Origin: Haloglomus litoreum
GTDB lineage: Archaea > Halobacteriota > Halobacteria > Halobacteriales > Haloarculaceae
DNA: 64,000 bases
Direction: 5' to 3'
NCBI RefSeq assembly: GCF_029338515.1
Contig: NZ_CP119988.1
Coordinates: 868,001-932,000, forward strand
Notes under the pieces: model-generated
What the model was told of the DNA's origin: nothing
Seen by the model: only the letters and a program-made list of their open reading frames with translations
The model's database searches: none
In this document: positions 11,851 to 16,459 of the stretch, piece after piece
Position numbering within the stretch: the stretch's first letter is position 1
Layout: every line of letters begins with the position of its first letter
Position numbers and translations under genes: made by a program

Positions 11851-13182
11851 TCACGCGCCGGGACTGGGGACGGTCGCGCCGAGGCGGTCGAGGTAGCGGT
11901 CGGTGAACCGGCGAGCGGCGCCGCGGTCGAACTGCTGCTGGCTGTAGCGCGTGACCAGCCGCACGTCGCCGTCCAGCGTCGCGACGCCGAAGCCGACGCC
12001 GAGCGGCATCATCGACGGCGGGGAGAAGTGGCAGTCCGCCTCGTCGTCCTGCCCGCCCAGCGCCGGGAGGTCGGGGATGCGCCCGAGGTTCGAGAGCACC
12101 GCGCTGTCGACGAAGCGGTACCCGGTCGCCCCGAGCAGGCCCGGGACGAGGCGCTTGATGCCGACCGGGAGGTTCGCGGAGAGCGGCCCCAGCGCGTCCG
12201 TGACCCAGCCGGCGCCGTCGTGGCGCTTGTGGCGGCTGGTCTGCTCGACGACGCGCTCGACGGCCGCGCCCGGACTCGTCCGGTGGCGCGGCTTCGTGTC
12301 CACGCTGACGAACGGGGCGTACATCCCGACCGTCTCGTAGAACCACTCCGGCGGGCGGGCGTTGACGGGCATCATCAGGCTGATGCGGTCGCTCTCGGCG
12401 CCGTGGTCGGCGTTCCAGTCGTCGATGGCGAGGTGGAGCGCCGCGAGGAAACAGTCGTTGACCGAGACGCCGTCGGGCCTGCCGCCCACGACCGCCGAGA
12501 CGAGGGCGTCGTCGAGTTCGCGGTGGACGAACCCCCAGCCCGACTCGTCGGTGCCGCCGTCGACGGCCACCCGGGTCGGTTCGTCCAGCGCGTCGGGGAG
12601 CCGTCCCAGCCCCTCGGCGAGCCGGGTGCCGGCCTCGCCGAGCGAACTGGGCCCGTCCTCCACCAGTACGGCACGCGACTCGGCCAGTCCGACGGGGTCC
12701 TCGTCCACTGGGTCGCCGCGGTAGGCCTGACAGACCGAGCGTGCGAGGCGGAGCGTCCCGACGCCGTCCATGGCGACGTGGCTCCCACAGACCATGAGCC
12801 GGTCGCCGCCGTCGATACCGCCACCGCGGGCCAGCGCGACCCGGAACGGCGGCGACTCGCGCAACTCGACGCGCGGGCTGTAGAACCGCGTCCGCAGGTC
12901 CGCCAGCGCCTCGGCGTCGCCCGCGTCGGCACGCTTCAGGGGCACCGTGTCCGGGTCGTCCGGGATCTCCCAGACGTACTCGTCGTCGAGCGCGCCGTAG
13001 TCGCGCAGGCGCGCCCGGGCCAGCGGGTGGGCGGCCGCGGCCGTCTCGACGGCGTCGTACAGCCGCTCGGCGTCGAGACTCGCCGCCGACCCGACCTCGA
13101 TCTGGACGTTCCAGGGCTCCAGTTCCTCCTCCAGATGAAGGACTGCCTCGTCCAGCGGCGTGAACGGAACGGTTCGCGTCAT
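11851..13182 (-). CDS. condensation-domain-fold acyltransferase (CoA-dependent acyltransferase superfamily)
   Basis: This 443-residue soluble protein has the fold of NRPS condensation domains, wax-ester synthases and alcohol acyltransferases. The catalytic HxxxDG motif is SHVAMDGVGT (H135, D139). The N-terminus MTRTVPFTPLDEAVLHL and the later LMMPVNARPPEWF fit this family. No adenylation or carrier domain is present here or in a neighbour, so it is a stand-alone acyltransferase and not part of a visible peptide synthetase. The natural substrate cannot be read from the sequence. It is transcribed alone. Confidence 0.7.
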   Translation of the reverse strand: MTRTVPFTPLDEAVLHLEEELEPWNVQIEVGSAASLDAERLYDAVETAAAAHPLARARLRDYGALDDEYVWEIPDDPDTVPLKRADAGDAEALADLRTRFYSPRVELRESPPFRVALARGGGIDGGDRLMVCGSHVAMDGVGTLRLARSVCQAYRGDPVDEDPVGLAESRAVLVEDGPSSLGEAGTRLAEGLGRLPDALDEPTRVAVDGGTDESGWGFVHRELDDALVSAVVGGRPDGVSVNDCFLAALHLAIDDWNADHGAESDRISLMMPVNARPPEWFYETVGMYAPFVSVDTKPRHRTSPGAAVERVVEQTSRHKRHDGAGWVTDALGPLSANLPVGIKRLVPGLLGATGYRFVDSAVLSNLGRIPDLPALGGQDDEADCHFSPPSMMPLGVGFGVATLDGDVRLVTRYSQQQFDRGAARRFTDRYLDRLGATVPSPGA

Positions 13183-13422: not shown

Positions 13423-13851
13423 CTACTGCTCGGCCGCGAGGTCGGCCTCGACCTCGTCGAACAGGTCGACGACGAGGCCCTCGATCTCGTCGCGGATCTC
13501 CCGGACGCGCTCGACGTCCTGACCGTGGGGGTCCGCGAGCGCCCAGTCGCGGACCTCGGTGTCGGCCGAGAGCGACAGCGTCGAGCAGCCCATCGTCGCC
13601 ACGATGTCGCATCGGTCCAGTTCCTCGTCGCTCACGGCGCGTGGGGTCCGGTCCGAGAGGTCGATATCGAGTTCGCCCATGACCTCGACGACCTCCGGGT
13701 GGACCGCGTCGGCGGGGTCGGTCCCGCCGGTGACGATGTCGACCGCGTCGGCCAGCCCACGGCGCTCGCGTTCGCGCTCGGCGAAGGCGGTCGACATCTG
13801 TGAGCGGCCGGCGTTCTGCACGCAGACGAAGCCCAGCGTCCGTCGGCTCAT
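13423..13851 (-). CDS. arsC: thioredoxin-coupled arsenate reductase (low-MW phosphatase family)
   Basis: This 142-residue enzyme would reduce arsenate to arsenite. The phosphatase P-loop CVQNAGRS contains nucleophile C10 in the CX5R arrangement. Two further cysteines at positions 81 and 89 (DRCDIVATMGCS) match the C10/C82/C89 relay of Bacillus-type thioredoxin-linked ArsC. It is therefore more likely a true arsenate reductase than a protein-tyrosine phosphatase. Its start overlaps the end of arsR by 4 bases. No arsenite pump gene is adjacent. Confidence 0.85.
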   Translation of the reverse strand: MSRRTLGFVCVQNAGRSQMSTAFAERERERRGLADAVDIVTGGTDPADAVHPEVVEVMGELDIDLSDRTPRAVSDEELDRCDIVATMGCSTLSLSADTEVRDWALADPHGQDVERVREIRDEIEGLVVDLFDEVEADLAAEQ

Positions 13852-14255
13852 GCCGGCACCTCCCGGGTCGTGTCCAGCGCGTTCAACAGCGCGGTCGTGC
13901 GGTCGGTCGCACGGTAGTAGCGCCAGCGGCCCGCCTTCCGGCGCTCGACCAGTCCGGCGTCGGCCAGCGAGGAGAGCGCGTGGCTCACCGCCGACTCCGA
14001 GACGTCCACGAGCGGGGCGAGCTCGCAGACACAGCGCTCGCCCCCCGCGGCGAGCAGGCGGGCGAGGCGGTAGCGCGTCTCGCCCCCCAGCGCCCGGAGC
14101 GCGGTCAGGTCGTCCCCGGGCGCGGCGGTCTCACGATCCAGCGCCCGGAGTTCGGTCACCCGGGCGTCGACATCGCTGTCACAGCACTCCTCCAGCTGGT
14201 CGCCCAGCAACCGCCGGAGGCGGTCGGTGTCGACCTCAAGTTCGGCGTCGGACAT
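13848..14255 (-). CDS. arsR: ArsR-family metal-sensing repressor
   Basis: This 135-residue winged-helix regulator has the ArsR metal site motif ERCVCELAPLVDVS at the start of the DNA-binding helix pair. The recognition helix is VSESAVSHALSSL and the wing is ERRKAGRWRYYRA. An extra N-terminal Cys pair (LEECCDSD) could add metal ligands. It forms a two-gene operon with arsC (4-base overlap) and probably represses it until arsenite or a similar metal binds. A TATA-like GAGTATAT lies just upstream of the start, next to a CAATTG palindrome. Confidence 0.85.
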   Translation of the reverse strand: MSDAELEVDTDRLRRLLGDQLEECCDSDVDARVTELRALDRETAAPGDDLTALRALGGETRYRLARLLAAGGERCVCELAPLVDVSESAVSHALSSLADAGLVERRKAGRWRYYRATDRTTALLNALDTTREVPA

Positions 14256-14316: not shown

Positions 14317-15039
14317 TCAGCCGTTCGGGTTCTCCGGGCGAGCGTCGTGGCGCGCGTCCGCGACCGCCGCCGCGAGGTCCCCGCGCTTCCAGTAGCCCAG
14401 CACGGTGAACACCACGCCGGCCGCCAGGAGCAGACCCACCGTGGCGAGGTTCGCCGTCGCGACCGCGTCGCCCAGGAACGCCGCCGCGACGAACGTCGGC
14501 GTCCGGCCCACCGCGACGAGCACGAGCAGGCGCCACGTCGGGATGTCGGTCAGGCCCGCGACGAAGCAGAGCGCGTCGTCCGGGAAGACGGGGAGGAGGA
14601 AGGCGACGAACAGCCCGGCCTCGCCCGTCTCGTCGACGACCGCGTCGAACTCCGCGAGGGTGTCGTCGGCCACGACGGACTCGGCGTACGGCCGGCCGTA
14701 CCGGCGGGTGAGGCCGATAGCGACGGCGCTCCCCAGCAGGACGCCGACGACGCTGAACGTCGCCCCCAGCAGCGGCGCGAACAGGTAGCCCCCGGCGACC
14801 GCGAGTAGCTGGCCGGGGATGGGCGCGACGACGACCTGTGTCGACTGGACGGCGAGGAAGACGACCGGGGCGAGCGAGCCGAACCCGGCGACCCAGGCGC
14901 GCGTCGCATCGGGGTCCAGCAGGAACGGGGCCGCACGGAGGACGAGCGCCGAGACGAGGCCGACGGCCCCGACGAGTCCAGCCAGCCGCAGGAGCGCCGC
15001 GCGGCGGTCCGCGGCCGACTCGAAGACGTCCCGGTCCAT
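14317..15039 (-). CDS. TVP38/TMEM64 (DedA-superfamily) membrane protein
   Basis: This 240-residue protein has about six hydrophobic segments and the SNARE-associated/DedA core motif: PIPGQLLAVAGGYLFAPLLG, then GSAVAIGLTRRYGRPY and VAFLLPVFPDDALCFVAGL. The acidic FPDDA motif is the DedA signature position. DedA/TVP38 proteins have recently been linked to lipid transport across membranes. Its start codon shares a base with the stop of the upstream PHP gene (TGATG), so it is the third gene of a coupled unit with a phosphatidyltransferase and a phosphoesterase. Confidence 0.85.
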   Translation of the reverse strand: MDRDVFESAADRRAALLRLAGLVGAVGLVSALVLRAAPFLLDPDATRAWVAGFGSLAPVVFLAVQSTQVVVAPIPGQLLAVAGGYLFAPLLGATFSVVGVLLGSAVAIGLTRRYGRPYAESVVADDTLAEFDAVVDETGEAGLFVAFLLPVFPDDALCFVAGLTDIPTWRLLVLVAVGRTPTFVAAAFLGDAVATANLATVGLLLAAGVVFTVLGYWKRGDLAAAVADARHDARPENPNG

Positions 15040-15773
15040 CAGCGGGGGAGGAGCTGCCGGACCTGGGCCAGGCCGCCGCCGGTCCGGAGGGTGGCGTTGT
15101 GGACGAGCTGTCCCACGTAGCGGGTCGCCGGGGTCCGTCGGCCCCGTGCGGTCGTCCGGCCGGCGCGGATGGCTGCGAGGGCTTGCCCGGCATCGACACC
15201 CGGTGGGTCCGGAGCCGTGAGATCGGTCGCCTCGCTCCCGCCGGGAGGCCGCACCTCGGTGTACGCCCGCCCGACCATCTCGGGTCGATGGGCGTCGCTC
15301 CCACCGACGGCGGGGTAGTCGGCACGGTCGGCGAACCGCCGAGCGCGGCGGTTCTGCAGGCCCGTCATCTGGTGGGCGTTGAACGTCTCCACGGCGTCGG
15401 GTGCCGCCCGGCGGATGGTCCGGCCGCTGGCACCGTGGCGGCTCACCTGGAAGGGATGCGCGGCGACCGCCACCCCGCCCCGGTCGCGGACCGTCCCGAC
15501 GGTCTCGGCCATCGGCCGGCCGGGCACGGGGGCGGCCTCGACCCCGAGTGCGAGCAGATGCCCCTCCGCCGTCGAGACCTCCACCCCGGGGATGACGAAC
15601 AGGCCGTATTCGGACGCGAGCCGTGCGGCCCGACGGGCCCCCCAGACGGTGTCGTGGTCGGTGATGGCCAGGCCGTCGAGCCCGGCGTCACGGGCCGCTG
15701 CCAGCACCGCGCGGACGGAGCCAGCGGCGTCGTGGGAGAACCGGGTGTGGACGTGCGTGTCGAGGCGTATCAT
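15039..15773 (-). CDS. PHP-domain metal-dependent phosphoesterase
   Basis: This 244-residue protein has the complete PHP metal-site set: DTHVHTRFSHDA (H7, H9), AITDHDTVWGA, PGVEVSTAEGH, VAAHPFQVSR and VGGSDAHRPE. Such enzymes hydrolyse phosphate esters with two or three metal ions. The gene overlaps the upstream phosphatidyltransferase by 4 bases (ATGA) and touches the downstream TVP38 gene by one. This context suggests a phospholipid head-group or lipid-phosphate substrate, but that is inference. Nuclease or histidinol-phosphatase-like activity is an alternative. Confidence 0.85.
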   Translation of the reverse strand: MIRLDTHVHTRFSHDAAGSVRAVLAAARDAGLDGLAITDHDTVWGARRAARLASEYGLFVIPGVEVSTAEGHLLALGVEAAPVPGRPMAETVGTVRDRGGVAVAAHPFQVSRHGASGRTIRRAAPDAVETFNAHQMTGLQNRRARRFADRADYPAVGGSDAHRPEMVGRAYTEVRPPGGSEATDLTAPDPPGVDAGQALAAIRAGRTTARGRRTPATRYVGQLVHNATLRTGGGLAQVRQLLPR

Positions 15774-16459
15774 CGGACTCCGAAGATGAGAATCAGGCAG
15801 AGCCCCGCTGCGACGGTCGCGAGGACGCCGACCAGCAGGTGGCTATCGTCGGTCTTGTAGCTCCGGTAGTTGGCGGTCATCGCCGGTCCCATCGGGAGGA
15901 TGGTGGCAGCGGCGAGCCAGCCGTTCCACGCCGGAACGAAGCTGACGAGGAAGTAGTTCGCCACGACCACGGCGTTCGCGTGGACCACGGTGAGGCCCCG
16001 GTAGAAGGCCACGCCGTCGTCCACGCCGAACCCCTCCGTCGAGTGGCGGATGAGTCGCAGGCCGCCGAACGCCAGGACGACGAACCCGACCACGAGGCCC
16101 GCGTACACGTTCGGCGCCATCGTCAGGTGGTAGAGGAGGGCCGCGGGGACCAGGTAGGCGAAGATATCGATGTAGGAGTCGACCTGCAGGCCGAGGTCGC
16201 TGGTGACATCCAGGGCGCGAGCGACCGCGCCGTCGAGCTTGTCGAAGGCAAACGCACCCAGCATCGCGAGCAGGCCCCAGTTGGGCTGTCCGGAGGCCAT
16301 GAGCAGCGCGGCCGCCCAGCCGAACAGGAGCGCCACGAGGCTCACGCAGTCCGCGACCGACAACTCCCGGAGGAAGCTCCGCCGGTCGGCCTCCCAGCCG
16401 TGTTCGGCCGCCCTGTCACGGACCCAGTCTACGATGCCTTCCGAGGCGGCTCCGGACAT
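15770..16459 (-). CDS. CDP-alcohol phosphatidyltransferase family protein
   Basis: This membrane enzyme would transfer a phospho-archaeol group from CDP-archaeol to an alcohol acceptor such as glycerol phosphate, serine or inositol phosphate. The 229-residue protein carries the family motif in LDGAVARALDVTSDLGLQVD followed by SYID, that is DG-x2-AR-x8-G-x3-D-x3-D. It has about six transmembrane helices. The head-group acceptor cannot be read from the motif. It is the first gene of a three-gene overlapping unit and has a clear TATA box about 30 bases upstream. Confidence 0.88.
   Translation of the reverse strand: MSGAASEGIVDWVRDRAAEHGWEADRRSFLRELSVADCVSLVALLFGWAAALLMASGQPNWGLLAMLGAFAFDKLDGAVARALDVTSDLGLQVDSYIDIFAYLVPAALLYHLTMAPNVYAGLVVGFVVLAFGGLRLIRHSTEGFGVDDGVAFYRGLTVVHANAVVVANYFLVSFVPAWNGWLAAATILPMGPAMTANYRSYKTDDSHLLVGVLATVAAGLCLILIFGVR

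Follow-up and report, generated by a model that had tools for sequence, protein, structure and literature searches.

We analyzed a 64,000-nt stretch of the Haloglomus litoreum genome (contig NZ_CP119988.1, positions 868,001 to 932,000; hereafter the window), in which a minus-strand cluster encodes a class I CDP-alcohol phosphotransferase (CDPT), a PHP metallohydrolase, a VTT-domain membrane protein of the TVP38/DedA superfamily and, upstream of these, a GNAT-family acyl/acetyltransferase. The reading that we favor, with a confidence a little above even, is that these genes form an accessory haloarchaeal module for a phospholipid head group, composed of GNAT followed by CDPT-PHP with or without VTT, and that the acceptor used by CDPT is unphosphorylated. 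The module product is probably an extra membrane lipid, possibly with an N-acylated archaeal phospholipid head group. A bolder claim, plausible but on balance doubtful, is that GNAT, a new CDPT subfamily and a CehA-type PHP hydrolase constitute a dedicated haloarchaeal pathway that makes an undescribed class of N-acylated or otherwise acylated archaetidyl lipids and is passed as a whole from one family to another.

The enzyme families involved are already known. In the literature searched we came across no description of the four-gene set or of the CDPT subfamily with its altered acceptor pocket; HVO_1970 to HVO_1973 turned up in a single paper, which gives no gene-neighborhood data. A 2021 review of haloarchaeal annotation left a Haloferax enzyme of the same class as CDPT, HVO_1971 (pgsA4), as unclear. 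Archaeal lipid head-group chemistry is only partly assigned to genes, and a conserved set comprising a new transferase subfamily, a GNAT enzyme and a hydrolase offers a concrete target for deletion, with a product that can be read by lipid mass spectrometry. An initial annotation of this DNA had cast PHP as a candidate phosphatase acting on a lipid phosphate made by CDPT; the question now shifts from the search for a phosphatase to the search for a new head group.

Gene order and linkage among haloarchaea

Gene order, coupling, co-occurrence, family membership and the conservation of motifs and residues were computed directly. Across 392 genomes of the order (95 sampled genera), the CDPT subfamily was recovered in 49 genomes (51 matches), which belong to 20 of the 95 genera and to four families. 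We then compared 51 loci, consisting of 49 fetched loci, the window and one additional locus (L025). A GNAT gene lies upstream of CDPT on the same strand in 49/51 loci (at 1.3 kb in one), which makes it the module's most constant partner. PHP is directly downstream of CDPT in 42 of the 51, with one further locus ending at a contig edge. VTT is found in just 24/51 loci. Gene order thus holds well outside the circle of close relatives, whereas its restriction to them had been named in the initial annotation as grounds for refutation. The three genes themselves were described correctly there, but the conserved upstream GNAT was missed.

In the window, the three minus-strand genes overlap by 4 bases and 1 base behind a single TATA box, as initially reported: the coordinates, the ATGA and TTTATA sequences (Table 1) and the TGATG at the PHP/VTT junction, with its single shared base at 15039, are all confirmed. 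These features recur elsewhere. Among the 42 loci that encode both proteins, the CDPT/PHP overlap measures 4 bases in 33 (the window and 32 fetched loci) and 1 base in another 4. In 36/50 loci CDPT is preceded at 20-45 bases by a TATA-like box, compared with 5.9 in shuffled upstream sequences; the corresponding count before PHP is 0/42. Because a TATA-like box precedes CDPT and not PHP, and because the genes overlap, CDPT-PHP(-VTT) would be produced as one transcript, which bears out the single operon proposed for the window. The spacing of the TATA box suggests that this transcript is nearly leaderless, and the ATGA overlap points to translational coupling of CDPT and PHP. In the window, 119 bases separate the end of the GNAT gene from the start of CDPT on the same strand.

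Within the 392 genomes, which were searched separately for GNAT, 48 carry both GNAT and CDPT, 1 carries CDPT alone, 8 carry GNAT alone and 335 carry neither (Fisher p 6e-52, a figure inflated by relatedness). Pairwise distances of CDPT, PHP and GNAT are correlated (r 0.51-0.76, Mantel p 0.001, 21-27 representatives after thinning). With the overlap of CDPT and PHP, the TATA box and the patterns of gene distance all conserved, the set is a real unit and not a chance arrangement. No CDPT was found in the genomes searched from the genus of the window (G001 to G003), and the module is therefore accessory. Three families are mixed within one clade of the CDPT tree, a sign that the module may have passed from one lineage to another.

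Several individual loci depart from the usual arrangement. On a plasmid of Haloterrigena sp. KLK7 (NZ_CP149790.1, L164:7451-8612), GNAT and CDPT stand as a minimal pair separated by a single base, adjoining genes for a single-stranded DNA-binding protein and a metallophosphoesterase; a search of plasmids for named copies returned nothing beyond this single pair. One of the 8 GNAT-alone genomes contains GNAT followed by a shortened CDPT fragment (L129:4848-5712), a decaying module. An alternative GNAT partner was considered for the GNAT-only genomes and rejected, as they share no common partner and one holds this decayed CDPT. A low-GC locus (L096:5697-5977, 46% GC) retains GNAT, CDPT and VTT without PHP, of which no remnant was detectable there.

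A membrane-protein gene encoding a D-D-HRKTLHYP histidine motif is found near the module in 21 loci (e.g. L063:6522-7193 and L072:7116-7793), mostly adjoining PHP or VTT and upstream in four. Its product matches no Pfam family and is possibly a membrane metallohydrolase and a further candidate for a lipid step. A promoter element, CTAAGTAAATA-n-TT, is conserved just upstream of the TATA box before CDPT in L063-L078, L092, L095 and L096. In a regulon search of 11 genomes with one mismatch allowed, this element matched almost only at the module operon, which suggests a dedicated regulator.

The phosphotransferase and its acceptor pocket

The class I CDP-alcohol phosphotransferase assigned to the first gene of the operon is upheld by a complete catalytic motif (residues 73-98), whose residues are invariant across 39 relatives, and by a score of 37.2 bits against PF01066 (CDP-OH_P_transf; cut-off 22). 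The best NCBIfam matches of CDPT are archaetidylserine synthase (ASS) and phosphatidylserine synthase (PSS) models. These serine-type models lead with scores that are all below cut-off (57.5 vs 240, 47.2 vs 200 and 43.2 vs 107 bits), and they rank first in 14/14 relatives. Models of enzymes with phosphorylated acceptors are also below cut-off (archaetidylinositol phosphate synthase, 29.9 vs 180; phosphatidylinositol phosphate synthase, 21.2 vs 170), and the pgsA model gives no match to the window CDPT. An AlphaFold2 model of CDPT (predicted local distance difference test score, pLDDT, 90.1) has the helical membrane fold of the class I family (six-helix). In a Foldseek search with this model the nearest solved structure was the PSS of Methanocaldococcus jannaschii (MjPSS, E 7.5e-7), with phosphatidylinositol phosphate and phosphatidylglycerophosphate synthases at 1e-2 or worse. 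By profile, predicted fold and motif, CDPT resembles phosphatidylserine synthase, an enzyme with an unphosphorylated acceptor.

Serine-type enzymes as the best profile and fold matches would also fit a rival proposal, in which CDPT is a second archaetidylserine synthase, using serine or threonine for archaetidylserine/archaetidylethanolamine, and GNAT and PHP are only loosely associated helpers. We consider this unlikely, and the acceptor pocket speaks to both sides of it. MjPSS (7b1k, 7pow) binds serine through D62, S63, D66 and F105 and has R101 and R104 as conserved ligands of an anion (PMC8633023). The counterparts of the four serine ligands in CDPT are D94, S95, D98 and H139. The anion arginines are retained as R135 and R138, which like D94 and D98 are invariant (39/39), and S95 is present in 34/39 relatives, so that CDPT shares the D-S-D acceptor residues of the serine enzymes as well as the class I motif. 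However, the position equivalent to F105 is His in 33/39, and residue 95 covaries with residue 139 (S-H 33, A-F 4, A-Y 1, S-F 1). The GLPxTA segment of PSS/ASS in the fifth transmembrane segment (TM5) is replaced by G-T-VVH-N. With its acceptor pocket altered in this manner, CDPT probably has an acceptor other than plain serine.

The wide margin by which CDPT misses the serine-type cut-offs (those of TIGR04217 and NF038087 among archaetidylserine synthases) is matched by its phylogeny and by its near-constant GNAT/PHP setting, in which it likewise differs from known serine enzymes. CDPT matches outside haloarchaea score at most 80 bits, compared with at least 280 within the haloarchaeal subfamily and 131 for one divergent plasmid copy; those extra-haloarchaeal matches that we inspected are ordinary serine-type synthases. 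A branch of 2.43 (support 100/99) splits the subfamily from PSS/ASS in the tree, where the plasmid copy (L110) takes an uncertain position between the two. The H. litoreum genome, moreover, already encodes an archaetidylserine synthase that passes its cut-off (L002, 279.7 vs 200), which counts further against a second one.

A phosphorylated acceptor, such as glycerol-3-phosphate or inositol phosphate, had been suggested for CDPT. Known enzymes with such acceptors (AisA/AIPS, the phosphatidylinositol phosphate synthase PgsA1 and the phosphatidylglycerophosphate synthase PgsA) share the superfamily and metal motif with CDPT and differ in having Arg or Lys after the fourth Asp. R94 of Mycobacterium tuberculosis PgsA1 occupies this position and is conserved among users of inositol phosphate (PMC6506517); the residue is Arg in the AisA-type enzyme of the H. 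litoreum genome (L001) and Lys in a PgsA-type relative (L011) and in the sequence of the PgsA structure 7drj. In CDPT the corresponding residue 99 is Ile or Val in 39/39 relatives. As no basic residue follows the fourth Asp, and as profile and fold are PSS-like, the premise of a phosphorylated acceptor is not supported. Compared with R155 and R195 of M. tuberculosis PgsA1, CDPT has no conserved Arg in TM5/TM6, just H160, K/R/H at 199 and K202, in a region too divergent for certain alignment.

Partner enzymes and alternative pathways

The PHP and VTT proteins, like CDPT, score above the Pfam cut-offs of their families, in keeping with the three families first assigned: PHP has 46.7 bits against PF02811 (cut-off 26.4) and 66.4 against PHP_C, PF13263 (cut-off 21.3), and VTT has 67.4 against PF09335 (VTT_dom; cut-off 33.9). 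The best curated family for PHP is CehA/McbA (NF038032, 98.7 vs 80 bits), founded on the carbamate esterases CehA and McbA (PMC8292978), and 29/29 relatives match its model. Metal ligands H9, D15, H40, E65, H72, H106, D160 and H162 are invariant and H7 is nearly so. The module protein shares these ligands and the PHP + PHP_C architecture with the CehA/McbA metallohydrolases (carbaryl hydrolases) and with TM0559, and differs from them as a small, stand-alone form of 244 aa coupled to a lipid enzyme. The nearest fold to its predicted structure is TM0559 (2anu, E 2.1e-12), followed by RNase AM and the AMP phosphatase 2yb1 (E 1.1e-8). PHP may be a phosphatase or, just as well, an esterase or amidase. 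A basic C-terminal helix was considered as a sign of membrane binding and set aside as not specific, being found in 29/29 relatives and also in the other PHP paralogs of the genome.

GNAT matches PF00583 (54.8 bits, cut-off 20.7) and has the acetyl-CoA loop RxxGxA/G, with R130 and G133 invariant in 15 relatives. Haloarchaea are known to contain archaeol and archaetidylglycerol in acetylated form, and their lipids can be acetylated by the unrelated YvoF of Haloferax volcanii (PMC9179154); an acyl-modified ether lipid therefore has precedent and is not outlandish. YvoF is an acetyl-CoA enzyme of a haloarchaeon that works on ether lipids and so sets a precedent for acylated lipids in archaea. Its closest relatives are maltose/galactoside O-acetyltransferases (PMC9179154), whereas the module enzyme matches GNAT models, with none of that kind among the matches listed. 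VTT shares its domain with the DedA/TVP38/VTT lipid transporters (UptA-type undecaprenyl-phosphate flippases); this protein may move lipid, though roughly half of the loci lack its gene.

In the mechanism that we infer, both for the individual reactions and for their order, CDPT would transfer the archaetidyl group from CDP-archaeol, a donor deduced from the enzyme class and the organism, to an alcohol without phosphate, as in phosphatidylserine synthase. GNAT may acylate or acetylate an amino (or hydroxyl) group of the acceptor or of the finished lipid. PHP, coupled in translation with CDPT, would hydrolyze a small bond (ester, phosphate or amide) in either the precursor or the lipid, so that the acceptor is released or a modification is removed. 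Where present, VTT may help to spread the lipid across the membrane.

Several observations weigh against this accessory head-group module. None of its four proteins has a known substrate, and the best GNAT models are weak and mixed, of aminoglycoside and RimI types, such that specificity is not readable from sequence. PHP, VTT or both are missing from some loci. Relatedness inflates the Mantel as well as the co-occurrence figures. A gap of ~60-180 bases separates GNAT from CDPT in most loci, and because of this space of its own GNAT may be a separate transcript. Two near paralogs of PHP are encoded in the same genome apart from lipid genes, and this type of PHP is therefore not lipid-specific as a class. 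These paralogs, L115 (C1:1548638) and L116 (C1:1067100), share an HPFQ-RHG motif and lie outside any lipid context.

The CehA/McbA assignment and the retention of both GNAT and PHP in most loci would suit an acylation/deacylation cycle, in which GNAT acetylates an amino alcohol, CDPT joins it to the lipid and a CehA/McbA-type PHP cleaves the acyl group from the precursor or lipid. We regard this as rather unlikely, since the CehA/McbA model is a broad domain model with most members lacking a tested substrate, the fold neighbors of PHP are phosphoesterases, and several loci have GNAT without PHP.

Improbable, in our assessment, is the pathway of the initial annotation, in which CDPT makes archaetidylglycerol-phosphate or archaetidylinositol-phosphate and PHP strips the terminal phosphate. 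True phosphatases do exist among PHP enzymes (HisPP and the AMP phosphatase recovered as a fold match), the PHP gene is translationally coupled to CDPT, and the phosphatases for archaeal lipids are, as the annotation said, ill defined (PMC9385802). Yet the acceptor evidence from residue 99 and from the PSS-like profile and fold stands against it, as does passage of the CehA/McbA cut-off by PHP. Phosphatidylglycerol (PG) and phosphatidylglycerophosphate methyl ester (PGP-Me) are typical haloarchaeal lipids (PMC8305020) while the module is present in ~12% of genomes, and PHP therefore cannot be the general phosphatase for PG-type lipids. The AisA-type enzyme L001 is separately encoded in the same genome, in a hisC-adk operon arrangement. 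Given L001, the archaetidylserine synthase L002 and the ~12% distribution, the module is an extra and not the missing housekeeping phosphatase.

Very improbable is a soluble phosphodiester of osmolyte type, like di-myo-inositol phosphate, exported by VTT or others: some class I enzymes (AF2299 and DIPP synthase) do use soluble donors (PMC4634129), but lipid enzymes are nearest by profile and fold, the module encodes no cytidylyltransferase, and the IPCT-DIPPS model scores just 20.8 vs 580 on CDPT.

Features of the window

The coordinates of the module genes and of their sequence elements are collected in Table 1.

Table 1. Module genes and associated sequence elements in the window.
Feature	Position	Strand	Basis
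CDPT, class I CDP-alcohol phosphotransferase, PSS-like subfamily, 229 aa	16459-15770	minus	Open reading frame (ORF) and PF01066
PHP metallohydrolase, CehA/McbA family, 244 aa	15773-15039	minus	ORF and PF02811/PF13263
VTT-domain membrane protein of the TVP38/DedA superfamily, 240 aa, accessory	15039-14317	minus	ORF and PF09335
GNAT-family acyl/acetyltransferase, 196 aa	17169-16579	minus	PF00583; conserved neighbor
TATA box TTTATA of the putative CDPT-PHP-VTT transcript	16493-16488	minus	Sequence; ~30 bases before the CDPT ATG
CDPT catalytic motif D73xxD76GxxAR(x8)G90xxxD94xxxD98, residue 99 = I	16166-16243	minus	Translation
ATGA overlap, CDPT stop / PHP start, 4 bases	15773-15770	minus	Sequence

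Directly after VTT, an ArsR-family regulator overlaps a low-molecular-weight phosphatase/arsenate-reductase-like gene by 4 bases (13423-14255, minus strand); this pair lies outside the conserved module. A condensation-domain or wax-ester-synthase-like acyltransferase is encoded ~1.1 kb downstream of VTT (11851-13182, minus strand).

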